Below are positions 4,451 to 64,000 of a stretch of 64,000 bases of DNA, piece after piece. Every line of letters starts with the position of its first letter. Position 1 is the stretch's first letter. The notes beneath the pieces are model-generated. The model ran no database searches. It worked only from the letters and a program-made list of their open reading frames with translations, and was not told where the DNA came from. Made by a program: the position numbers and the translations under genes. The stretch comes from Dyadobacter sandarakinus (lineage in GTDB: Bacteria > Bacteroidota > Bacteroidia > Cytophagales > Spirosomataceae): positions 1,304,001-1,368,000 of the forward strand of contig NZ_CP056775.1 in the NCBI RefSeq assembly GCF_016894445.1, given 5' to 3'.

Positions 4451-6274
4451 ATGGACAAAAATTTTGTGATCGGCTTAGTACTGATTATGCTAATGCTGAT
4501 AGGCTACCAGGTCCTTGTTCCAAAACCCGTGGAGCAGGTCCCGACGGCGCAAGTGAAGAAAGAAGCTTCAAACTCTCCCGCTACCACTTCAACTACCCAG
4601 GACAATAATCAGGCCGGTTTGCAGCAGGGCGACTCTGCGGTTGTGCAAACACCTCCTCAGGATCTTGTTATCGAAACCAGCGACCTCCGTGTTGTCTTTT
4701 CTAACAAAGGCGGTGTCATGAAGGAGGTTTTACTTAAAAAATACAAAACGTTTGATCATAAACCACTCTATCTGATTGCGGAAGGACATAACAGGTTCCA
4801 GCTTGATTTCCCGTCGGCTGCTGCCAATGTACGGCTGAGCGACATGTTCTTCACAACCAGCGCGACGAACAGAACGTTATCCGAGAAAGACTCGGCGGTA
4901 ATCTCGTATCGCGTCGACCTGAAAAACAACCAGTATCTGGAGCAAACCTACGTGGTACGCGGATCGGGTTACCTGATTGATTATGGTATCAAATCGAACA
5001 GCACCGCTTCCGCCGATAAGGCATTGCACCTGGACTGGACGAATGACCTGCTGCAGCTTGAAAACGACATGAAGAAAAACAGGGAAGTAGTTACCATCAA
5101 CTACTATACCGACGAACTTCAGAATCTGCCTACAAGCCCGACTGCCAATGAAGAAGCACTGGCTGCTGAGCCGGTAAAATGGTTTACGATCAAGCACAAA
5201 TACTTTCTTGCCGGTTTGATCGCGAAAAGCGGTCCGCTCACAAATGTAGCCCTGCGTGCCAGTGTGAACCCTCAGGACTCGACCATCGTGAAAACGATGA
5301 ACATATCGGCCAACATACCGGTATCAACAATTCAGAAGGGACAGGCTGCGTATCAGTTTTACCTCGGTCCCAATGATTATCATACCGTCGACCGGGTTCA
5401 GGCCGAAAATTTTGACCAGAATGTATACCTTGGGTATGCGTTCCTAAAACCGATCAACAAGTTCTTCCTGGTTCCGCTTTTCAATTTCCTTGAAAAATTC
5501 ATCTCGAACTACGGGCTTCTGATCATCTGTCTGGTATTGTTTGTGAAAACGCTGCTCACGCCGCTGACTTACAAATCCTATATCAGTATGGCGAAAATGA
5601 GGCTGCTGGCTCCGGAATTGGAACAGATCCGTGAGAAAAACCCGGACGATATGGCCAAGCAGCAGCAGGAACAAATGAAGCTTTACCAGCAGGTAGGCGT
5701 CAGTCCGCTGAGTGGATGTATTCCTGTACTGGCAACCATGCCGATCCTGTTTTCGCTCTTCTTCCTGTTCCCGAACCTCATTGAGCTGCGGCAGCAAGCA
5801 TTCCTTTGGGCCGGTGACCTTTCCACTTACGATTCATTTATCAAGCTCCCATTTACCATTCCTTTCGGAATCGGAAACCACATCAGTCTTTTTACGATCC
5901 TGATGACGGCTTCGAGCATTGGGTACGCCTATTATAACAACCAGATCACGCCAACCCAGCCGGGACCGGTGAACATGAAAATGCTAAGCTACTTTATGCC
6001 GCTCATGTTCATGTTTGTACTGAATTCATTCCCTGCAGGTCTTACGTTCTACTACTTTGTTTCAAACATTGTGACGATTGCGCAGCAATTGCTGATCAAG
6101 CGCTTTGTGAATGAGGACAAGATCCGGAGTATCCTGGACGAAAACAGGAGAAAGAATGCCAACGGTGAGAAAAAGCAAACCAAATTCCAGCGTTACCTGG
6201 AAAAATCACTGCAGGCTGCCGAGGAAGCAAAGAAAAAGCAGGCAGAACTCGAGAAGCGTTCGAAAAAGAAATAA
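4451..6274 (+). CDS. yidC: Membrane protein insertase YidC
   Basis: A 607-residue Oxa1/YidC-family insertase that places proteins into the inner membrane with or without SecYEG. A first membrane helix lies at about residues 4-22, followed by a Ser/Thr/Gln-rich linker and a large periplasmic beta domain (about 70-330) as in Gram-negative YidC. The conserved insertase core with five helices covers about 345-565. Signature stretches include VKTLLTPLTYKSYISMAKM and FPAGLTFYYFVSN. The tail (last 40 residues) is Lys/Gln-rich and coiled-coil-like, fitting a ribosome-contacting end. A strong terminator follows. Confidence 0.97.
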   Translation: MDKNFVIGLVLIMLMLIGYQVLVPKPVEQVPTAQVKKEASNSPATTSTTQDNNQAGLQQGDSAVVQTPPQDLVIETSDLRVVFSNKGGVMKEVLLKKYKTFDHKPLYLIAEGHNRFQLDFPSAAANVRLSDMFFTTSATNRTLSEKDSAVISYRVDLKNNQYLEQTYVVRGSGYLIDYGIKSNSTASADKALHLDWTNDLLQLENDMKKNREVVTINYYTDELQNLPTSPTANEEALAAEPVKWFTIKHKYFLAGLIAKSGPLTNVALRASVNPQDSTIVKTMNISANIPVSTIQKGQAAYQFYLGPNDYHTVDRVQAENFDQNVYLGYAFLKPINKFFLVPLFNFLEKFISNYGLLIICLVLFVKTLLTPLTYKSYISMAKMRLLAPELEQIREKNPDDMAKQQQEQMKLYQQVGVSPLSGCIPVLATMPILFSLFFLFPNLIELRQQAFLWAGDLSTYDSFIKLPFTIPFGIGNHISLFTILMTASSIGYAYYNNQITPTQPGPVNMKMLSYFMPLMFMFVLNSFPAGLTFYYFVSNIVTIAQQLLIKRFVNEDKIRSILDENRRKNANGEKKQTKFQRYLEKSLQAAEEAKKKQAELEKRSKKK

Positions 6275-55162: not shown

Positions 55163-57436
55163 TTAATCCCGTATCACAAGCACCGAAGGCGACTGCGAGA
55201 GCCACACGCTATGCGCCTCCACGGCTTTTTTCCAGCTTGCAAGGCTCATCACCAGCAGGTCGAATTGCTGCAGAAAATCCCTGTCCAGCGCATTGCCGTA
55301 ATGCAGGATCACACGCTCGGGGGCAGTTTCCTGCACCGCTGCGAGGTGGCCCGTCACGTCCGGGTTCTGGCTCAGGGATTCGGAGGGGTCCATAATAGTC
55401 ACCTCGGCATCACCCGAGAGCAGCATTTTCTGTCCGTAACGCAGCAGGAACTGGTCTGCCGGAGCAAATACCGGAATCAGGATGCGGTGTACGCGGGCCA
55501 GGTTCTTCTCGATCAGTATGCCCACCGGTACCTTTACAGAGCGGATGATATGGGTTGTTTTTTCATCAAACACATCTGAATGAAAGAACTTTTCCTTACC
55601 CGTGAGTGTATCAGACCAGCGTTCACGGCTGATGATCTTAGAAGTAAAGCCCAGTACCTTCCCCAGGAATGTGCCTTCAAAAACCGACCTGCCCATGCCG
55701 ATCACAAGCATATCGTACTCACCGCTGTTGGCAGTATCGATGATATCATTGTCAATGTTTTTTGAAGGTCTGAAAAGCGGGGCGAATGTGGTACCGAGGT
55801 GCTCGGCTTCCTCGGTGATCGGCCTGAAAGTTTCGGCCTGATATGCCTCGGTATTGACCTGATTGAGGTAGCTGCTGGGGGAGAGGTGCAGTGCCGTTAT
55901 GTGCTGCGACTCGGCGTCTTTTTGCAGAAAATGATAAACAAGCCTCAGCATTTTCTTGCCTCCCTGCGGACTGGCAAATGCAATAAGTACTGAAAAACGC
56001 GATGGAATGGCGCTTTCCAGCATACTTTCCCAGTTGTTCTGCGGTAAAAAGCGGTCGATGAGGTCGAGTGCGGGGCCTGTCATGCAAGTGGTAGCCAGCG
56101 CCATAATCACCATCATTGCAAAAATCTCGGGAGAAAGTACGCCGATGTCGTAGCCGATGTTAAGTACCACCAGCTCCATCAGCCCGCGGGTGTTCATCAG
56201 CGAACCGATGATCAGGCTGTCGCGCCATGATTGCCGCACCATACGGGCTGCGATGGCACTCCCGAGGAACTTGCCTGCGACCGCCGCGAGGATGATCAGT
56301 CCGGTGATTTTCCAGAGGTAAATGTCGTTCAGCAGTCCGATCTGCGTGCGCAGTCCGGTGAAAACAAAAAAGAGCGGCAGGAGCAGTACAAGCGAAACGT
56401 CTTCTACTTTCTCGGTAAATATGGTCCTGAAATTCTGGTTGGCAGGCATGATCACACCCGCCATGAATGCACCGAACAGGGCATGGATGCCGATGATCTC
56501 ACTGCAGTAAGACGAGAGCAGCAGTGTCACAAAGAACACGGCAACTACCGGCTTGGTAAGACCTTCGCGGTAGGCATAATGATCGCCGATGCGTTTCAGG
56601 AACGGGCGCACCAGTTTGAGCATGATCACTACATATACCACGGCCAACGCAATGGTGTACAATGAGCTCAGGAACGATCCCGCCTTCACGATGGCGATCA
56701 CGGCCGCCAGGATACACCAGGCAGTAATATCGTCTGTGGCTGCACAGGTGATCACCATGGTTCCCAGCCGGGTGCGCGACAGCCCGCGCTCCTGAACGAT
56801 GCGCGCGAGTACGGGAAAAGCGGTAATACTCAGAGCGATACCGATAAAGAGTGCAAATGAGAGAAAGTTGATGCCTGCCGGTGCAAAACGCTGATAAATC
56901 ATCAGCGCCAGGCCCACCCCCAGGGAAAAAGGCAGGATGATACTCGCATGACTGATCACCACAGCTTCCTCGGCTTTGCTTTTTAATGTTTTGAGATCGA
57001 GTTCCATGCCAATGATGAACATGAAAAGGATGAGGCCAATCTGACTCAAAAACTGCAGATTGCCCAGCGATTGGGCTGGAAAGAGGAAAGCCGATACCTG
57101 GGGAAAGTACATGCCCGCCAGCGAAGGTCCCAGAAATATCCCTGCTGCGATCTCACCCACTACCGACGGCTGCCCGATTTTCCTGCACAGAAAACCGAAA
57201 ATCCTCGCGATGAGGATGATAGTGATGATTTGCAGCAGAAGAATGGCGAGAGGGTGCGAAAGACCATGCCTGAAAGTATCCCAAAACTGCTCCCACGAGC
57301 TGGTTCCTGGGTCTTTGCTGCTGGCAGCAAGTGCAGGGCTTTCCAGGTTTTGTCCCTGCTGCATGAAAAAATAAAGAAGTGTTGAGAATACCCCTATCGT
57401 GATAATGTAGAAAAAGAGATTGCGCAGGTTTTTCAT
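55163..57436 (-). CDS. CPA2-family cation:proton antiporter with Usp-like tail
   Basis: A 757-residue protein. Residues 1-470 hold a first helix (about 7-27) then the 12-13 helix Na+(K+)/H+ exchanger core, with VGEIAAGIFLGPSLAG, IGLILFMFIIGMELD and the ion-site motif AATDDITAWC (tandem Asp). The C-terminal 270 residues are soluble, resembling two universal-stress-protein-like domains (LVIGMGRSVFEGTFLGKV). This matches plant CHX-like and cyanobacterial/Bacteroidota CPA2 exchangers for K+ or Na+ and pH control. The gene is 48 bases upstream of the cNMP-binding protein on the same strand, so the two may be co-transcribed. Confidence 0.9.
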   Translation of the reverse strand: MKNLRNLFFYIITIGVFSTLLYFFMQQGQNLESPALAASSKDPGTSSWEQFWDTFRHGLSHPLAILLLQIITIILIARIFGFLCRKIGQPSVVGEIAAGIFLGPSLAGMYFPQVSAFLFPAQSLGNLQFLSQIGLILFMFIIGMELDLKTLKSKAEEAVVISHASIILPFSLGVGLALMIYQRFAPAGINFLSFALFIGIALSITAFPVLARIVQERGLSRTRLGTMVITCAATDDITAWCILAAVIAIVKAGSFLSSLYTIALAVVYVVIMLKLVRPFLKRIGDHYAYREGLTKPVVAVFFVTLLLSSYCSEIIGIHALFGAFMAGVIMPANQNFRTIFTEKVEDVSLVLLLPLFFVFTGLRTQIGLLNDIYLWKITGLIILAAVAGKFLGSAIAARMVRQSWRDSLIIGSLMNTRGLMELVVLNIGYDIGVLSPEIFAMMVIMALATTCMTGPALDLIDRFLPQNNWESMLESAIPSRFSVLIAFASPQGGKKMLRLVYHFLQKDAESQHITALHLSPSSYLNQVNTEAYQAETFRPITEEAEHLGTTFAPLFRPSKNIDNDIIDTANSGEYDMLVIGMGRSVFEGTFLGKVLGFTSKIISRERWSDTLTGKEKFFHSDVFDEKTTHIIRSVKVPVGILIEKNLARVHRILIPVFAPADQFLLRYGQKMLLSGDAEVTIMDPSESLSQNPDVTGHLAAVQETAPERVILHYGNALDRDFLQQFDLLVMSLASWKKAVEAHSVWLSQSPSVLVIRD

Positions 57437-57541: not shown

Positions 57542-57572
57542 CAAAAAAATCGCCCCGGTGATGCCGGGGCGA
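57542..57572 (-). terminator. Rho-independent terminator of the enolase-superfamily gene
   Basis: On the reverse strand CGCCCCGG, loop CATCA, CCGGGGCG (8 bp, GC-rich) is followed by ATTTTTTTG. It closes the SusCD operon. Confidence 0.9.
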
Positions 57573-57614: not shown

Positions 57615-59099
57615 CTAGCTCCACAGCCGGTCGTGGGAGCGCTTGTCGTTCCAGTCGGGCGTAGGTGCAAAGAAACTTTTGTCTTTTGGAAGCAGGTGCT
57701 TTTTCACTTCCTCTTCGTTCAGCTCGATGCCCAGCCCGGGTGCGTCCAGCGGCACATTGGCGAAGCCTTTGTCGATCAGCCTGCGGCCATCTGTGGTTTT
57801 GACCAGACTTTCCCACCAGGGTACATCCACCGAGTGGTGTTCAAGCGCGAGGAAATTCTGCGTAGCTGCGGCACAATGCACATTGGCCATAAAGCTCACG
57901 GGAGTTCCGGCAAAGTGCATGGCCATTGCAATCCCGTTTTCTTCAGCATAGTCGCCAATGCGCTTCGTTTCCAGGAGTCCACCCGATGAAGCCAGGTCGG
58001 GATGGACGATGTCTATCGCACGTTTGTCGATGAGCGTTTTAAAGCCATCTTTCAGATAAATATCCTCCCCGGTCAGCGTAGGAGTTTCGAGTGCGTCGGA
58101 AATCGTCCGCCACTGGTCTGTAAACTCCCAGGGAACCATGTCTTCCAGCCAGGCAAGGCGGTATTTTTCGAGTGCTTTTCCCAGCCGGATGCCGTTATTC
58201 ATATCAAAATGGCCATAGTGGTCGGTAGAGAGCGGTATTTCGTAACCTACCGCGCTGCGTACATCGTCTACTACCTTGGCCATTTCGGCAAGGCCTTTTT
58301 CTGTGATCTGGATACCGGTAAACGGGTGTTTGGTGTTGGCGTAAGAGTAGTAGTCGCCCGACCATTGTGAAAACCCGCCACCCCAGAACTTGTTGTTTAC
58401 CACGCCATTTTCCACGTTTCGGAGCATTCCAATGGATACGTCCATTTTGAGCCAGGTATATCCCTGATCCACTGTACGGTACTTGATTTTTTGTTTAAAC
58501 TCGGCAAGATCGTCAGATTCCGGGGTATCGGCATACAACCGGACCTTGTCGCGGTAGCGGCCGCCAAGCAGCTGCCAGCAGGGCACGCCGTAAGCTTTTC
58601 CGCAAAGGTCCCAAAGCGCCATTTCCACAGCGCACACCCCGCCGGCCTGGCGCCCGTGAAAGCCGAATTGTTTGATCGATTTAAATAACATTTCCACGTT
58701 GCACGGATTATGCCCCAGCAAATGTGCTTTAAGACTCAGCGCATAGCGTTCATCGGCCCCGTCGCGTACCTCGCCTAAACCGTAGATCCCCTGATTGGTG
58801 TCGATGCGGATAATAGGCGTCCGGCCTACATTCTGTACGATACAATACCGTAGATCGGTGATTTTCAGGTCGGAAGGTTTGGACGCCCGGTTCACCTTGC
58901 TGGTAGCCTGCGCAATGGTGTCTTCGGTGGACATGGACATAAAGCTCCCCAGCGCAATGCCGCCGATGGCCGAATTGCGGAGGAAGTTCCTGCGGCTGGG
59001 CTTTGTTGCCGGATCGTTCATCTCTGCAAGATGAGCTGCTTTTTCAGCTGCTTCCAGTTGCTTGTTCTGTGCAATAATGTCTTTTAAGATGCTTTTCAT
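57615..59099 (-). CDS. Tat-exported enolase-superfamily enzyme (mandelate racemase/muconate lactonizing type)
   Basis: A 494-residue protein. A 34-residue lead-in is followed by a twin-arginine motif, SRRNFLRNSAIGG (R36, R37), and a hydrophobic stretch, so the folded enzyme is probably sent to the periplasm. The enolase barrel covers about 80-480. Metal ligands are D293 (STDHYGH), E319 (WLEDMV), E345 (TGEDIY). Base/acid candidates are K218 (WLKMDVS), H366 (IVHPDLASSGG) and H395 (MHFAGTP). The pattern fits acid-sugar dehydratases such as the galactonate/gluconate type. The substrate is not determined. It lies at the end of a SusC-SusD-RraA-like operon. Confidence 0.85.
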   Translation of the reverse strand: MKSILKDIIAQNKQLEAAEKAAHLAEMNDPATKPSRRNFLRNSAIGGIALGSFMSMSTEDTIAQATSKVNRASKPSDLKITDLRYCIVQNVGRTPIIRIDTNQGIYGLGEVRDGADERYALSLKAHLLGHNPCNVEMLFKSIKQFGFHGRQAGGVCAVEMALWDLCGKAYGVPCWQLLGGRYRDKVRLYADTPESDDLAEFKQKIKYRTVDQGYTWLKMDVSIGMLRNVENGVVNNKFWGGGFSQWSGDYYSYANTKHPFTGIQITEKGLAEMAKVVDDVRSAVGYEIPLSTDHYGHFDMNNGIRLGKALEKYRLAWLEDMVPWEFTDQWRTISDALETPTLTGEDIYLKDGFKTLIDKRAIDIVHPDLASSGGLLETKRIGDYAEENGIAMAMHFAGTPVSFMANVHCAAATQNFLALEHHSVDVPWWESLVKTTDGRRLIDKGFANVPLDAPGLGIELNEEEVKKHLLPKDKSFFAPTPDWNDKRSHDRLWS

Positions 59100-59155
59100 A
59101 AGTAGTTTTTTGTAGAATTTCTAAATACTGTCTTTAAGATGTTTAGCGTTGAAGC

Positions 59156-59395
59156 CCCTCCTTTGTCACCCTGAGCGGAGTCGAAGGGCGATGCGGCCAC
59201 GACAAACCACTTTTTACCTCGCTTGTTGCCATTTGCTATTATCAAGCTTAAATGGCTTCATAGTCGCCGCACCCACCCTCCTTTGTCACCCTGAGCGGAG
59301 TCGAAGGGCGATGCGGCCACCACAAACCACTTTTTACCTCCTTTGTTGCCATTTGCTATTATCAAGCTTGAACAGCTTCATAGTGGCCGCATCTG
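59156..59395. repeat. Two tandem 120-base direct repeats
   Basis: Units at 59156-59275 and 59276-59395 are nearly identical, differing at about eight single positions. Each begins CCCTCCTTTGTCACCCTGAG and ends in CTTCATAGT(C/G)GCCGCA. Confidence 0.9.
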
Positions 59396-59420
59396 CCCTT
59401 CGACTCCGCTCAGGGTGACA
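59284..59420. mobile_element. MITE/REP-like element with 37-38 bp terminal inverted repeats
   Basis: The left arm 59284-59320 and right arm 59383-59420 are reverse complements with a single one-base insertion. They enclose a 62-base centre. The arm holds CACCCTGAGCGGAGTCGAAG, a string I recall as widespread between genes in Bacteroidota and other bacteria. The left neighbour unit (from 59164) lacks its right arm. No transposase is present, so it would be moved in trans. Confidence 0.7.
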
Positions 59421-59475
59421 AGGGATGGGAGGAGCGGTGTTGAGGGAGATGACGTGCCTTACATAGCCGTTCTAC

Positions 59476-60408
59476 CTAGTAATTTCTGTCTTTCAGATAA
59501 TCATCCAGCTCCTTCTTGGTCATCGGCAGCTTGCCGGGGTAGTTGTTGACCCAGTTCAGGAAATCTTTCTGGATCGCATCGGACCATTTGGTGTCGATCT
59601 CGCCGGGCGTGTACTTGCCCTCGCGCAGGCGCAGGTGCCCGAACTCGTCGCGCAGCGCTGTTACCTCAGAGGTAATCACAAGGTCTTCCACCAGGTGAGC
59701 GGGAATGAAGATGGTACCGTATTTTTTGGCCAGTACCACATCCCCCGGCAGCACGGTGGCGCGGCCGATCCGGATCGGCGTATTGATGTTGGACAGCATC
59801 ATCTGCTGGATATAGGAAGGATCATTTCCTTTGGTCCATGCATTGAACCCCTTGATTTCGCTCAGCCCTTCCACGTCCCGGACCGACCCGTAAAAGATCA
59901 CCCCACGCTTCGATTTGGCATAGATAGAGTTACCCAGGTTATCACCGATCAGCGTGCCGTCGGCAATTTTGCCGTAGCCGTCGGCCACGTATACATCGCC
60001 TTCTTTGAGAACATCAATGGGCCAGGAGTTGGTACCCCCGGTTTGTACCCGTCCTTCTTTCTTGCCCATTTCCTTGACCAGATCGGCCAGGTCAGGGCGG
60101 AGCGGTACGTATTGGGCAGTGACGACGCGCCCGGTCATGACGCTGTCCGTATGGATCAGCTGCCAGTCTCCCTCAAACTGATTGTTGTAGCCCTTGTTCC
60201 GGAGTACGCCCCAGGCTTCTTCCATAGAAATGTTTTTGAGGCGCGCCAGTATCGCGTCGGAAACCCTGGGCCGTCCGTCGGCGGAACGTTCGCCTTTCCA
60301 GGCCGATGTGTAGGCTTTCAGCTGGTCGGGCGTAGGCGAGACGGATTGCGCCTGCGCACCGAGCGTACAGCATGCAACCATCCCTGCGAAAAAGGTTTTT
60401 TTGATCAT
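59476..60408 (-). CDS. Exported RraA-like/HMG-aldolase-family protein
   Basis: A 310-residue protein with a signal peptide (about 1-21, ...TLGAQAQ). The central domain (about 115-245) is the RraA fold: GDVYVADGYGKIADGTLIGD, then RGVIFYGSVRDVEGL with the Arg-Asp pair that in aldolase members binds pyruvate and metal, and PGDVVLAKKYGTIFIP. Cytoplasmic relatives are 4-hydroxy-4-methyl-2-oxoglutarate aldolases or RNase E inhibitors. Export rules out RNase E regulation, so an enzyme role on oxo-acids is more plausible. It follows susD by 24 bases. Confidence 0.82.
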   Translation of the reverse strand: MIKKTFFAGMVACCTLGAQAQSVSPTPDQLKAYTSAWKGERSADGRPRVSDAILARLKNISMEEAWGVLRNKGYNNQFEGDWQLIHTDSVMTGRVVTAQYVPLRPDLADLVKEMGKKEGRVQTGGTNSWPIDVLKEGDVYVADGYGKIADGTLIGDNLGNSIYAKSKRGVIFYGSVRDVEGLSEIKGFNAWTKGNDPSYIQQMMLSNINTPIRIGRATVLPGDVVLAKKYGTIFIPAHLVEDLVITSEVTALRDEFGHLRLREGKYTPGEIDTKWSDAIQKDFLNWVNNYPGKLPMTKKELDDYLKDRNY

Positions 60409-60432
60409 AAAAGTATATTAAGCGGATAAAGA

Positions 60433-61965
60433 TTATTTGTCCCAGAAAACGGGTGTACCTAACTCATCAGGGCCCATGCGGGCTACTGCTTCCCTGTAAT
60501 TGGCCTCATTCACCGAACGCTCGCGCACCGGATAAACCAATCTCCTGATAAAGTCTTTGACGGAAGGATCTTTACCCGGATAGGTATTTACAGGCAACGC
60601 AGGAAAGCCGCTCCGGCGGAAATTGGCCCACGCTTCCGAACCATTCAGGAAGGAGGAAACCCAGTACTGGCTGTTGATCTGTTCCAATGCATTCGCCGGC
60701 GTAAATGGGTGGGCGGTGAGGTAGGCATCCTGACTGGCCGCGGGGATTGTCGCAGCCACATCATAGGTCGCCAGCTGCGACATATGTGCTTTTACGCCAG
60801 CCTCGTACAACGCTTTTACATCTCCCGCAGCCCAGCCGCGCTGTACGGCTTCAGCCAGTAAAAGCGAGGTTTGCGAGTAGGTGATGAAAAACTCGGGTGC
60901 ATCAATCTTGCCCAGTGTCTTACGGTTGATCTGCGAGTATTTGAATGCAGCCCCGATCTTCCCGGGAAAGCCGGGCGCATTGGCAATGGTCGATTCATTG
61001 TACCCGTAGGGCATGCCTTCCTGGTTGGCAGGATTGGTGTCCTCCGCTCCGGCGGTGGCAATCGGGTTGCCGGGGGTTTCGTACTTCACGGCAATGACGC
61101 TCAGGCGGGGATCTGCATTGGCTTTCAGATAATCCACAAAGGCTTTGCCAAGATATACGTTGCCTCGCTCGGTACCCTGAAAGTAGTTTGCCAGCGGATG
61201 GTTGAAAGTGCTGTTAAAGGCGATGAATGCATTGTCGGCATTGGAACTCTGCAGACCTCCGTTCGCGGGATCCACCGCTACCGCCACAAACTGTTTTGCC
61301 TTGTTCTGGTCAATTTTTGTATACCGCATCGCGGCACGCAGAAGGAGCGAGTTGCCCAGTTTTTTCCATTGTGCAATGTTTCCCTTGTAAAACAGGTCAC
61401 CGATTTCGATTGCCTTGCTTGCATCAAGACCCTTGGTGCCTTCGCTGAGCTCTTTCAGCAAGTCGTCGTAAATCAGCTTCTGGTCGTCATATTTGGGTAA
61501 GTTGATCTGCTCAAGAAATCCTTTTCCTGCCTGGAAATAGGGGACATCCCCATAGGTATCTACCAAAACCATAAACACATACGATTTCCAGATCCGCGCC
61601 ATATGGTACAGGTTACTGCGGGCCGGATTGTCTTTCGTCTGAGAAATGACAGTTGTCAGCAGGTTCACCGGACCGTTTTGCAGGTAAAGCGAGTTGAAGT
61701 TCGCATTGGAATTTGGATCAGACACTGCATTGTGGTTGCCGCCTTCAAGCACACCCGTGTAAGGTGTATTGATCTGCTGCACAATCTGAAGCTGATAGTT
61801 CTGCGTAGCGATCGCCGACGAAAACTGTGCATTGGAGAACAGGTAACCCGGATCAATGCTGGTCGCCAGCACCGGGTTTTTGTTCACATCCTCAAACCCC
61901 TTGTCGCAGGAGCTGACCAGGACGAGGAGGCAGAGGGTTGTGATATGTGAGAGAAGTTGTTTCAT
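60433..61965 (-). CDS. SusD/RagB-family outer-membrane nutrient-binding lipoprotein
   Basis: A 510-residue surface lipoprotein, with signal ending VSSC (acylated Cys20). TPR-like helices of the SusD fold are visible (YHMARIWKSYVFMVLVDTYG, DDLLKELSEGTKGL, WKKLGNSLLLRAAMRY). It caps the SusC barrel and captures an oligosaccharide or related compound. It is separated from susC by 166 bases holding a short tandem repeat. The adjacent enolase-type and RraA-type genes suggest acidic sugars or their derivatives as ligand, which is inference. Confidence 0.92.
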   Translation of the reverse strand: MKQLLSHITTLCLLVLVSSCDKGFEDVNKNPVLATSIDPGYLFSNAQFSSAIATQNYQLQIVQQINTPYTGVLEGGNHNAVSDPNSNANFNSLYLQNGPVNLLTTVISQTKDNPARSNLYHMARIWKSYVFMVLVDTYGDVPYFQAGKGFLEQINLPKYDDQKLIYDDLLKELSEGTKGLDASKAIEIGDLFYKGNIAQWKKLGNSLLLRAAMRYTKIDQNKAKQFVAVAVDPANGGLQSSNADNAFIAFNSTFNHPLANYFQGTERGNVYLGKAFVDYLKANADPRLSVIAVKYETPGNPIATAGAEDTNPANQEGMPYGYNESTIANAPGFPGKIGAAFKYSQINRKTLGKIDAPEFFITYSQTSLLLAEAVQRGWAAGDVKALYEAGVKAHMSQLATYDVAATIPAASQDAYLTAHPFTPANALEQINSQYWVSSFLNGSEAWANFRRSGFPALPVNTYPGKDPSVKDFIRRLVYPVRERSVNEANYREAVARMGPDELGTPVFWDK

Positions 61966-61975
61966 GTTTAGTTTT

Positions 61976-62126
61976 GAATTAGTGAATGAGTGAATTAGCG
62001 AATGATTGAATGACTGAATGACCGAATGATTGAATGAATGAGTGATTTAGTGATCAATGACCCAATGACTGAATGACCCAATGACTGAATGACCGAATGA
62101 TTTAGTGACCCAATGACCCAATGCCC
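61976..62126. repeat. Degenerate octamer tandem repeat between susC and susD
   Basis: About 18 units of an 8-base motif GAATGANY (variants GAATGACT, GAATGACC, GAATGATT, AATGACCC) fill 151 bases of the 166-base gap. The units diverge from one another and do not extend into either gene. Confidence 0.85.
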
Positions 62127-62131
62127 ATTTT

Positions 62132-64000
62132 TTACAACTTAATATTCAAATTAACCCCATAGCTCCGGGTGGTGGGTAGGGTGTGGGTTTCGATGCCCTG
62201 GAGGTTGTCGGAGGCGGAGACAGCAGCCTCGGGATCAAGGTTATCGATGTACTTTTTGATCATCAGCACATTGTAGCACATGGCCGAAATGCTCAGCCCT
62301 TTGACAAACGTCTTGTCTCTTACGAAGCGGGAAAGATCGTAGCTCACAGACAGGTTTCTCCACCTCACGAATGCGCCATTGTAGACAAACGGGGCGGCCA
62401 GGTTGGTGCTGCGGTATTGGGTGTAAAACTGCTGCGCTTCCACGCGGGTCGTGTTTGGCAATCCGTCGGAGGTAACCCCTTCGAACAGTACACCGCCTTC
62501 GCGACCTACGAGTGAGGGTTTGGAAATTCCTTCACGCAGGAAGTTCAGGTTGGAGTTGGAAAGGATTTTGTGACCCGCCTTGAAGTCGATCTGGGTTCCG
62601 ATGCGGATACCTTTTACATTGAAATTGTTGACCCAGGCACCCACCCAGGTAGGGATGGCGCTGCCGAAAGTGGTCAGCTCACCCTGCTGGAACAAGCCGC
62701 CTGCCGTGATAATGCGCCCCTGTGCATCTCTTTTGTAATCAAAACCCCGGAGTGACGCGAGCGGCTTGTTGAGCTCGTGTGACACGATCCCGAAGAACTC
62801 GCCCGTGCCTACGTCAAACCGCTGCTGCCGCGGCGGGCCCGGTGCCAGCTCAATCACTTTGCTGATATTATAGCTGCCGTTAAAGCTGGTTTCCCAGGTG
62901 AAAGCCTCTGTCCTCGCCGGTACAATGGTAAGCAGGAACTCAATACCGGTATTACGCAGCTTGCCAACATTCACTTTCGTCTGGCTGAAACCCGATGTGT
63001 TCGAAATATCCACGTTCAGGATTTCATCAACGGTGTTTTTGCGGTACACTGACATGTCCAGGTTAAGGCGGCTGTCAAATGTTTTCAGTTCGAGTCCCAG
63101 CTCGGTTTCCTTCACCTTCAATGGTCTCAGGTTTGCATTTGGCGCCACCGTCGAAGGCAGGTTACCCAGGGCAGTTCCGTTGAATGGGTTTGCATTGATC
63201 CCGTAATAAAGATTATTGGAGTACGGGTCCGTGTCGCCGCCCACTTCTGCATAAGCCGCGCGCAGTTTGCCGTAAGTAAGCCACTCAGGTGCACTGGCAA
63301 ATGCCTGGCTGAATACAAAGCTTCCGCTTACAGAAGGGTAGAGGTAGCTGTTGGATGCAGGATTGAGCGTCGAAAACCAGTCGTTCCGCCCTGTGACATT
63401 TACGAAAAGAAAGTTTTTGTAAGACAGCTCCGCAGACCCATAGAAGGAGTTGACCTTCTTCTTGCTGTAACCATAATTTGGATTCTTGATCTGCCCGTTT
63501 GCAACGGTATACAAGTCGCGGACATAGAAGTTGGTGACCGCCGTAGACAAATTATCATTGATCTGCGTCATCTGGTTGCCGCCGAGCGTCACATCGATCC
63601 CGAAATCGCCGAACGTCCGGTTGATACCCACGAGGAAGTCGAGGTTGGTCTCCCGGAAAGTAGCTACATCCTGGTAGTAATACCCGTTGAAACCCGTAGT
63701 CACAGCACCGATGGAGCGTGTGCCGGTCGGGCGGTTGTAGTTGTAAGGTCTGGTGAAATAATCCTGACCGATGCGGCCCTGCACAAACAACCAGTCTGTA
63801 AAATCGTAGCGGACAGAGGTATTACCAAAAATCCGGTCGCGGCGCACATTCTCAAACCGGTCATAAGCGACCCAGTAGGGGTTGTTACGGTTGGTAAAAC
63901 GCGCCAGGGGCATCTCATTTCCGTTAGCATCCTTCCGGTTTTTGAGCCACTCGGCATCAATGCTCGTGGCCAGGGTATAAATGGTGGTATTGGCATTCAT
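62132..64000 (-). CDS. SusC/RagA-family TonB-dependent receptor, C-terminal 622 residues
   Basis: The open frame runs to the window edge, so the signal peptide, carboxypeptidase-like domain, TonB box and plug lie outside. What is here is the beta-barrel: alternating strands such as LFVNVTGRNDWFSTLNPAS, KLRAAYAEVGGDTDPYSNN and a final TTRSYGVNLNIKL, which is the C-terminal beta-signal of SusC proteins. It imports the ligand captured by SusD using TonB energy. The N-terminal Met in this frame at 63998-64000 is internal to the protein. It is the first visible gene of a leftward operon with susD, the RraA-like gene and the enolase-type gene. Confidence 0.93.
   Translation of the reverse strand: MNANTTIYTLATSIDAEWLKNRKDANGNEMPLARFTNRNNPYWVAYDRFENVRRDRIFGNTSVRYDFTDWLFVQGRIGQDYFTRPYNYNRPTGTRSIGAVTTGFNGYYYQDVATFRETNLDFLVGINRTFGDFGIDVTLGGNQMTQINDNLSTAVTNFYVRDLYTVANGQIKNPNYGYSKKKVNSFYGSAELSYKNFLFVNVTGRNDWFSTLNPASNSYLYPSVSGSFVFSQAFASAPEWLTYGKLRAAYAEVGGDTDPYSNNLYYGINANPFNGTALGNLPSTVAPNANLRPLKVKETELGLELKTFDSRLNLDMSVYRKNTVDEILNVDISNTSGFSQTKVNVGKLRNTGIEFLLTIVPARTEAFTWETSFNGSYNISKVIELAPGPPRQQRFDVGTGEFFGIVSHELNKPLASLRGFDYKRDAQGRIITAGGLFQQGELTTFGSAIPTWVGAWVNNFNVKGIRIGTQIDFKAGHKILSNSNLNFLREGISKPSLVGREGGVLFEGVTSDGLPNTTRVEAQQFYTQYRSTNLAAPFVYNGAFVRWRNLSVSYDLSRFVRDKTFVKGLSISAMCYNVLMIKKYIDNLDPEAAVSASDNLQGIETHTLPTTRSYGVNLNIKL

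Follow-up and report, generated by a model that had tools for sequence, protein, structure and literature searches.

A candidate periplasmic sugar-acid pathway: predicted exported dehydratase–RraA pair at a SusC/SusD locus of Dyadobacter sandarakinus

Non-phosphorylative catabolism of aldonates, of the Entner-Doudoroff or De Ley-Doudoroff type, is cytoplasmic; aldonate dehydration and cleavage of the 2-keto-3-deoxy acid are regarded as central carbon steps of that compartment. This article concerns a locus of the soil bacterium Dyadobacter sandarakinus in which an enolase-superfamily protein and an RraA-like protein, both bearing export leaders, are encoded together with a SusC/SusD pair. The locus lies on the minus strand, in the order SusC–SusD–RraA-like–enolase-superfamily, from position 64000 down to 57615 of the window (the whole 64,000-nucleotide stretch that was analysed, C1:1304001-1368000 of the 6.07 Mb genome). 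Uptake of an acidic monosaccharide by a SusC/SusD-type system has a reported precedent in the sialic acid transporter NanO/NanU (PMC3969230). No description of an exported enolase-RraA pair was found among the titles and abstract openings listed by searches of an open-licence library.

The original prediction, made from the nucleotide sequence, placed four genes here in one direction, and the open reading frames of the minus strand, with Pfam and NCBIfam support, agree. All of the expected domains were recognized: MR_MLE N and C domains, RraA-like, SusD-like, and SusC/RagA. The SusC/RagA transporter adjoins the SusD-like lipoprotein, making up a SusC/SusD pair. The four genes are:

62132..64000, minus strand: SusC/RagA TonB-dependent transporter, C-terminal part (TIGR04056); the gene runs past the window edge
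60433..61965, minus strand: SusD-like outer-membrane substrate-binding lipoprotein, 510 amino acids (PF12771, 1.8e-74)
59476..60408, minus strand: RraA-like protein, predicted exported, class II pyruvate aldolase fold, 310 amino acids (PF03737, 9.2e-18)
57615..59099, minus strand: enolase-superfamily protein of the mandelate racemase/muconate lactonizing type, 494 amino acids, proposed exported aldonate dehydratase (Pfam/NCBIfam)

The following pathway is proposed. The substrate taken up by SusC/SusD would be an acidic sugar; an aldonate (for example gluconate, galactonate, or mannonate), or a compound that yields one, is the most likely candidate. Degradation would begin in the periplasm, where the enolase-superfamily protein, exported through the twin-arginine translocation (Tat) system, would form a 2-keto-3-deoxy-aldonate by dehydration of the aldonate. 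This 2-keto acid would be the substrate of the RraA-like enzyme, exported through Sec, which would most likely split it into pyruvate and an aldehyde in a metal-dependent retro-aldol reaction. The resulting small keto acid would then cross the inner membrane, in many relatives probably by means of a BASS-family symporter encoded nearby. The sections below show the order of the genes, their leaders, the conservation of catalytic residues, the predicted folds and the recurrence of the pair; from these we infer the periplasmic location, the substrate class, both reactions and the transporter role.

Taken as a whole, this pathway is favoured by a narrow margin. That the enolase-superfamily protein is an exported aldonate dehydratase and that RraA acts on its product is considerably more probable. 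For the RraA step itself, fold, motif and context suggest retro-aldol cleavage at about even odds. Inference backs dehydration, the first step, well and the second step more weakly.

Export leaders

A Tat motif on the enolase and a Sec signal on the RraA-like protein had been predicted, and both are present:

58980..58997, minus strand: twin-arginine motif SRRNFL, enolase residues 35-40 (S35-R-R-N-F-L40), with a hydrophobic stretch behind it
60346..60408, minus strand: Sec-type leader MIKKTFFAGMVACCTLGAQAQ, RraA-like residues 1-21, ending AQA-Q

The genome encodes TatC. Twin arginines, hydrophobic stretch and translocase gene together mark the enolase as a predicted Tat substrate. The same twin-arginine and hydrophobic features occur in 102 of the 104 family enolases with a placeable leader, and a hydrophobic leader in 113 of 114 RraA relatives, by a lenient hydrophobicity test that 219 of 501 other open reading frames of these loci pass too. 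(Nineteen of 123 enolases and two RraA sequences could not be placed by the leader script; three of 71 enolases, not full length, had been dropped earlier.) One of the two enolase misses, L067, reflects a wrong start call, and its sequence holds SRRNFL. The other, L116, is a Caldilineaceae protein in which the motif is absent and is the sole clear exception; the Caldilineaceae are a family of the Chloroflexota. The single RraA miss, L061, looks like a leader slightly below threshold. Because leaders are kept in nearly all relatives, those of the window are not chance matches, and predicted export is a property of both protein families. Close orthologues without leaders, which the original prediction would have taken as evidence against itself, were not encountered.

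Ahead of the Tat motif, the enolase has a 34-residue N-terminal extension (58998-59099; MKSILxxI...), common to many orthologues and partly predicted to be helical. Chitinophagaceae enolases carry a different extension (MTPSQKFL...) at this place.

The enolase-superfamily protein

The protein scores well above the Pfam cut-offs for the MR_MLE N domain (43.7 versus 22 bits) and C domain (149.2 versus 29.4 bits). Its nearest solved relative is 2qq6 (phmmer E 9.7e-58), which the structure model matches with Z 47.5 and a root-mean-square deviation (rmsd) of 1.8 over 369 aligned residues; structure models were compared solely with the 1000 top-ranked Foldseek chains. The closest curated models are galactonate, mannonate, and gluconate/galactonate dehydratases, at 160-181 bits: NF010624 (D-galactonate dehydratase) gives 180.5 bits, below its cut-off of 311, and NF043051 (D-mannonate dehydratase ManD) 163.6 bits, below its cut-off of 550. 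Other models score lower: talarate/galactarate, 100 bits; muconate cycloisomerase, 60; and glucarate, 21. Since the aldonate dehydratase models score highest, an aldonate is favoured over an aldarate as the likely substrate.

The original prediction had allowed either an acidic sugar or an aromatic-derived acid. In the latter case, a cycloisomerase-like enolase and an aldolase of the 4-hydroxy-4-methyl-2-oxoglutarate/4-carboxy-4-hydroxy-2-oxoadipate (HMG/CHA) type would break down an aromatic-derived acid by a muconate or gallate/protocatechuate 4,5-cleavage type of route. The HMG/CHA aldolase 3noj is indeed a close characterized fold relative of the RraA-like protein, and passages of a Dyadobacter paper list RraA family proteins with a proposed benzoate degradation (PMC12584681). 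However, the muconate cycloisomerase model is far weaker than that for galactonate dehydratase (60 versus 181 bits). Moreover, no ring-cleavage gene is found among the recurrent neighbours that were identified (not all were), which are mostly sugar-acid and transport genes. On model scores and identified neighbours, the aromatic route was rejected as highly improbable.

Five residues, proposed as metal ligands or catalytic dyad by their roles in the superfamily, are invariant throughout the 97 enolases of subfamily A, to which the window's protein belongs and in which it is counted:

58221..58223, minus strand: Asp293, proposed metal ligand (then H294, Y295, G296, H297); invariant, 97/97
58143..58145, minus strand: Glu319, proposed metal ligand; invariant, 97/97
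58065..58067, minus strand: Glu345, proposed metal ligand; invariant, 97/97
57996..57998, minus strand: Asp368, proposed His-Asp dyad; invariant, 97/97
57915..57917, minus strand: His395, proposed His-Asp dyad; invariant, 97/97

Residues K218 and H294 are likewise invariant in all 97, and H297 is found in 95. The proposed ligands and dyad are invariant also in all 23 subfamily B enolases. Loss of the metal or base residues, named beforehand as the other finding that would tell against activity, is therefore not what the two subfamilies display.

The RraA-like protein

With 65.3 bits against a PF03737 cut-off of 24.5, the protein belongs to the RraA-like family. Its structure model (predicted local distance difference test, pLDDT, 89.7) matches the folds of 5x15 (Z 23.3) and of 3noj (Z 20.5, rmsd 2.7, 207 aligned residues). 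Two segments make up a D-X20-R-D motif:

59941..59943, minus strand: Asp156, aligned with 3noj; Asp in 92 of 119 RraA sequences, 91 of these with R-D
59875..59880, minus strand: Arg177-Asp178; R-D in 118 of 119 RraA sequences

The full motif is present in 91 of the 119 sequences, including the window's; matches of 700 bases or less were removed before counting. A second motif is reportedly worded G-X20-R-D-X2-E/D (Mazurkewich et al., 2014). Most homologues carry one of the two, according to passages of a published account (PMC5065237). The curated HMG/CHA aldolase models stay below cut-off: TIGR02798, 53.8 versus 304.5 bits; and NF006731, 52.2 versus 179 bits.

Family membership raises another role, that of RNase regulator, or more broadly of exported but catalytically dead relatives that do something else. 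Loss of the RraA Asp in some relatives is compatible with this. A regulator of RNase E, on the other hand, must be cytoplasmic, and leaders, which predict export, are near-universal here; the proposed metal ligands and dyad of the enolase, moreover, are invariant. The RNase E regulator RraA model (NF006875) reaches just 36.9 bits, below its cut-off of 136. A role as RNase regulator was rejected as very improbable on the predicted leaders and this low score, and the broader idea of inactive proteins is very improbable too.

Tandem RraA genes occur in several loci (L076:11736-13865; also L071, L075, L078, L105, L120 and L142), with the first Asp lost and, mostly, E three residues after R-D. These may form hetero-oligomers.

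Recurrence of the pair

The original prediction had advised looking for the same gene order in relatives, and SusC-SusD-RraA-enolase is found in all 13 Dyadobacter loci fetched, whose enolases are 87-92% identical to the window's. The wider enolase-selected set comprises 64 loci, those of 80 with at least about 50% identity; the other 16 (L122-L137, about 29% identity) lay outside the analysis. Of the 64, 52 have an RraA gene on the same strand no more than 1.5 kb away; in a range of 8 kb, 34 have SusC together with SusD and 29 have a BASS gene. Owing to contig ends, all of these counts are lower bounds.

At E up to 1e-20, 133 of 200 genomes of the same family gave RraA matches. Phylum-wide, at E up to 1e-30 and with the own genome counted, 25 of 392 did so; this RraA type is therefore patchy outside its own family. 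An RraA-selected phylum sample comprises 34 loci (L138-L171; the own-family loci L172-L177 are outside the count). A family enolase is adjacent in 24, an exported-type amidohydrolase in five, and a BASS gene lies within 8 kb in 18. Where a locus has several RraA genes (L141, L142, L149, L166 and L171), one was counted. This choice does not inflate the 24, since the uncounted RraA of L149 adjoins an enolase. Chance adjacency was rejected as the explanation: with 10 enolase-type C-domain matches in 6.07 Mb, an enolase gene would by our estimate stand within about 1.5 kb of RraA in about 1% of cases or fewer, versus the 24 of 34 seen.

Recurrent neighbours include genes for relatives of 2-keto-3-deoxygluconate (KDG) kinase, 2-keto-3-deoxy-6-phosphogluconate (KDPG) aldolase, UxuA, an FGGY gluconokinase-like protein, a pyrroloquinoline quinone (PQQ) dehydrogenase, and the BASS transporter. 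KDPG aldolase and UxuA exceed their NCBIfam cut-offs, and the other sugar-acid neighbours fall under theirs. A BASS relative scores best with the models for the bile-acid symporter family and for the ketopantoate transporter PanS, in each case under the cut-off. The layout first described is confirmed, and its interpretation finds partial support and is extended: the Dyadobacter locus exemplifies a dehydratase-RraA module, predicted to be exported, that recurs in the Bacteroidota.

In 12 loci (for example, L071:12806-13234), RraA and BASS genes have as a neighbour the gene for a small DUF4440 protein that carries a leader.

A second context for RraA

Of the five amidohydrolase-context loci, four have a DgaE-like ammonia-lyase and three have RidA. 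The amidohydrolase of L150 exceeds its curated cut-off (436 versus 371 bits). The lyases are relatives of the DgaE family of pyridoxal phosphate-dependent ammonia-lyases (L150, 167 bits; L140, 197 bits; below the cut-off of 385), and the RidA-family neighbour is over the Pfam and under the NCBIfam cut-off. By eye, the lyases and RidA have Tat-like leaders. L150 also encodes a gluconolactonase-like protein. Clusters of DgaE-like lyase, RidA, amidohydrolase, RraA and BASS, the enzymes with leaders by eye, are seen at L150:479-10446, L140:6231-11316 and L148:2576-14412. Their composition and leaders suggest breakdown of amino sugar acids outside the cytoplasm.

The product of an aldonate dehydratase belongs to the same compound class, 2-keto-3-deoxy acids, as the one that DgaE forms from an amino sugar acid, an established reaction (PMC9529869). 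Common to both contexts are RraA and, often, a BASS gene. Because both enzyme sets should yield 2-keto-3-deoxy sugar acids, the best-fitting role for RraA is to process this common product. Put most simply, RraA would act on the 2-keto-3-deoxy acid, and BASS would move a keto acid.

Tandem arrangements of two RraA-enolase pairs occur in some loci. A subfamily-specific partnership is expected if an RraA has to match the stereochemistry of what its dehydratase produces. The RraA tree holds 106 of 119 rows, 13 from closely related loci having been left out. One clade of 24 rows (support 100/100) comprises 17 that stand beside a B enolase only and seven with both A and B within 1.5 kb; all 17 B-only rows fall inside it. 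An RraA clade thus accompanies one enolase subfamily, as expected of dedicated partners. The logic of a dehydratase followed by RraA, part of the original prediction, gains from this pairing, as it does from the sugar-acid neighbours and the DgaE-like second context.

At L166:10154-10816, an apparent internal deletion has merged the first part of an RraA with the last part of a subfamily A enolase into one open reading frame; its neighbours are an intact pair of subfamily B and a BASS gene. This is apparently a decayed A pair.

Two further loci of the same genome bear on these themes. A second RraA with a leader, 58% identical to the window's, is held by a FecR-SusC-SusD-amidohydrolase-RraA-BASS operon (L023:523-10572); the amidohydrolase and RraA have leaders by eye, and the BASS gene is of a related type. 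At the other locus (L022:2088-18875, C1:176000-195000), a LacI-like regulator and a PQQ dehydrogenase are encoded along with two SusC/SusD pairs and three aldonate-dehydratase-like proteins whose leaders look Tat-like by eye. One of the three dehydratases exceeds the galactonate dehydratase cut-off (440 versus 311 bits). The PQQ dehydrogenase is over its Pfam cut-off, with the glucose/quinate/shikimate family as best NCBIfam match, under cut-off. This second locus possibly encodes an exported route from aldose to keto acid. Since it adds three dehydratase-like genes with Tat-like leaders, exported aldonate dehydratases seem to be a theme of this organism.

A still broader proposal concerns many Bacteroidota, which would have a modular extracytoplasmic route for sugar acids: aldoses would be oxidized; acids would enter through SusC/SusD; exported dehydratases of the enolase type, or exported DgaE-type lyases with exported RidA, would form 2-keto-3-deoxy acids; dedicated exported RraA enzymes, each matched to its dehydratase, would cleave these; and BASS would import the small keto acid only. 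This is offered tentatively, as somewhat doubtful in its full extent.

Fate of the 2-keto-3-deoxy acid

Several findings weigh against the proposed pathway. No NCBIfam model matched by the enolase or the RraA-like protein reaches its cut-off. In the enolase, Tyr replaces the His of the D-x-H motif seen in 2qq6 and in three other dehydratase-like proteins of the genome. Among RraA sequences, 28 of 119 depart from D-X20-R-D: 27 at the Asp, and one with R-N for R-D. The first Asp is replaced by S (19), A (6), or N (2), and of the 27 Asp-less sequences 16 have E or D three residues after R-D, whereas 11 have no R-D-X2-E/D. An RraA within 1.5 kb is lacking in 12 of the 64 enolase loci; of these 12, eight extend for 3.7 kb or more to either side, and two have an RraA within 8 kb. 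Five of the 34 RraA-selected loci have neither context. A BASS gene was not found in the 20 kb around the window's own operon (L009). The genome encodes a leaderless KDG kinase and KDPG aldolase in a uronate operon. Finally, seven of the 11 RraA copies without either motif (in loci L073, L088, L089, L091, L092, L094 and L106, mostly from Zobellia-like flavobacteria) occur within 8 kb of genes for KDG kinase, KDPG aldolase or both.

The Tyr makes the acid/base set of the enolase unusual. At this position, subfamily A has Tyr in 53 of 97 sequences, Phe in 29, Trp in seven, Thr in five and others in three; subfamily B has D-M-H-G-R or K in 23 of 23. In the D-H-Y-G-H arrangement, one His precedes the replaced position and another stands two places behind it. 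Thus, the enolase looks active, presumably with an acid/base arrangement of its own, which may mark a particular substrate.

The departures from D-X20-R-D imply that RraA chemistry may differ in part of the family. One alternative keeps the same first step and gives RraA another reaction, such as the combined dehydration and decarboxylation by which FlDet yields alpha-ketoglutaric semialdehyde, or the decarboxylation carried out by relatives that act on oxaloacetate. The catalytic Asp varies among RraA relatives; and FlDet, according to passages of the published account, converts 2-keto-3-deoxyglucarate to alpha-ketoglutaric semialdehyde and is inactive on KDG, KDPG, 4-deoxy-L-erythro-5-hexoseulose uronate (DEHU) and 4-hydroxy-2-oxoglutarate (PMC8563752). 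Yet the enolase is closer to aldonate than to aldarate dehydratases, the native N-terminus of FlDet has no export leader, and no semialdehyde dehydrogenase appears among the recurrent neighbour families identified (not all families were). A reaction of this kind is unlikely.

The KDG genes raise a different alternative, in which the 2-keto-3-deoxy acid itself is imported (by BASS) and passed to cytoplasmic KDG kinase and KDPG aldolase; RraA would help without C-C cleavage, through ring opening, epimerization, or binding. Of the 64 enolase-selected loci, 11 have a gene for KDG kinase, KDPG aldolase or both within 8 kb, and in seven of those 11 the RraA lacks both known metal-ligand motifs. A periplasmic aldolase would be redundant in those seven, given KDG kinase or KDPG aldolase genes so close. 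Because the window's genome, too, encodes the cytoplasmic KDG kinase and KDPG aldolase route, imported KDG would be usable without RraA. An anomerase that aids an aldolase has a reported precedent in YhcH (PMC8141875). Against this, D-X20-R-D is intact in most RraA sequences, including the window's, and would be needless in a non-catalytic helper. Furthermore, the motif is retained in four of the 11 RraA copies with KDG genes nearby. The motif-less copies near such genes belong essentially to one clade: the five of the seven that are present in the tree form a single clade, and the loss is thus about one event. As a hint, the motif-less copies would fit a phosphorylative variant. Import of the intact 2-keto-3-deoxy acid with RraA as a helper is improbable, and cleavage by RraA in the periplasm is preferred.

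Gene layout and surroundings

The genes beyond position 64000 were looked for, as had been suggested. Completed from the genome, the SusC open reading frame has 1167 amino acids; the plug domain is present, and the STN domain is marginally below cut-off (28.2 versus 28.4 bits). The part inside the window gives 278 bits versus a cut-off of 368, covering the C-terminal 609 of 981 model positions. Upstream of SusC follow FecR, an extracytoplasmic function (ECF) sigma factor, a cupredoxin-fused gene, and a gene for a protein with a 3-keto-disaccharide hydrolase domain. A SusC with an STN-like domain, next to genes for FecR and an ECF sigma factor, is in keeping with induction by the substrate that SusC transports. 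The cupredoxin-fused gene is kept in 13 of 13 Dyadobacter loci; its cupredoxin part alone is over the Pfam cut-off, and its NCBIfam azurin match is below cut-off. The label 'sorbosone dehydrogenase' for this gene is given little weight.

Two features lie between or behind the genes:

57550..57572, minus strand: terminator-like hairpin 3' of the enolase gene, likely operon end (stem TCGCCCCGG/CCGGGGCGA plus T run)
59156..59391, no strand assigned: interspersed repeat, present in two copies of 120 bp between the RraA and enolase genes (gap of 376 bp), with three cores CCCTTCGACTCCGCTCAGGGTGA or its reverse complement

The hairpin stem was scored on the plus strand also, in a terminator scan that relies on consensus match only and gave 13 such sites in the region versus 7.9 expected. 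A downstream Na+/H+ exchanger gene (55163-57436) was considered as an operon member. It is probably separate, because the hairpin and T run stand directly 3' of the enolase gene.

A 7-kb query against the organism's own genome gave 151 matches, many on the RraA-enolase gap and often on both strands. The exact repeat core was not found in the RraA-enolase gap of 13 other Dyadobacter loci. The SusC-SusD gap (61966-62131) holds a run of imperfect short TCATT-like units, with similar stretches at dozens of genome sites (query positions about 4965-5124).

Comparison with known systems

If the broader proposal is right, the pathway would in effect be a periplasmic non-phosphorylative Entner-Doudoroff module. 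SusC/SusD loci would then do more in the periplasm than hydrolyse glycans; proteins so far labelled only 'RraA family' would have a function; and a class of BASS transporters would be keto-acid importers. The two paired enolase/RraA subfamilies make the substrate assignment directly testable.

The proposed order of reactions, aldonate dehydratase followed by an aldolase acting on the 2-keto-3-deoxy acid, is like that of the Entner-Doudoroff/De Ley-Doudoroff type. Unlike that type, both enzymes here have export leaders, SusC/SusD are co-encoded, and the candidate aldolase is of the RraA family rather than one of the usual KDG aldolases. The enolase resembles the D-galactonate and D-mannonate dehydratases of the mandelate racemase subgroup (NF010624, NF043051) in fold, proposed metal ligands, and His-Asp dyad; it differs in scoring below the curated cut-offs, in having D-H-[Y/F]-G-H for D-x-H-G-R, and in its Tat leader and long conserved N-terminal extension. 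The RraA-like protein shares fold (Z 20.5) and D-X20-R-D with the HMG/CHA aldolase 3NOJ, a class II pyruvate aldolase, whereas its export leader, its longer N- and C-terminal parts, and its sugar-acid rather than aromatic gene neighbourhood set it apart.

Two other described systems share parts of the scheme. FlDet is also a Bacteroidota RraA-family protein that acts on a 2-keto-3-deoxy sugar acid; as passages of its description have it, it differs in its length of 237 amino acids, its lack of a leader, its alginate pathway, and its substrate (PMC8563752). The DgaE system (PMC9529869) has its counterpart in the DgaE-like ammonia-lyases that sit near a predicted exported RraA in the second context. 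Here, by comparison, the lyases have Tat-like leaders, stand with RraA and BASS, and score below the DgaE cut-offs.

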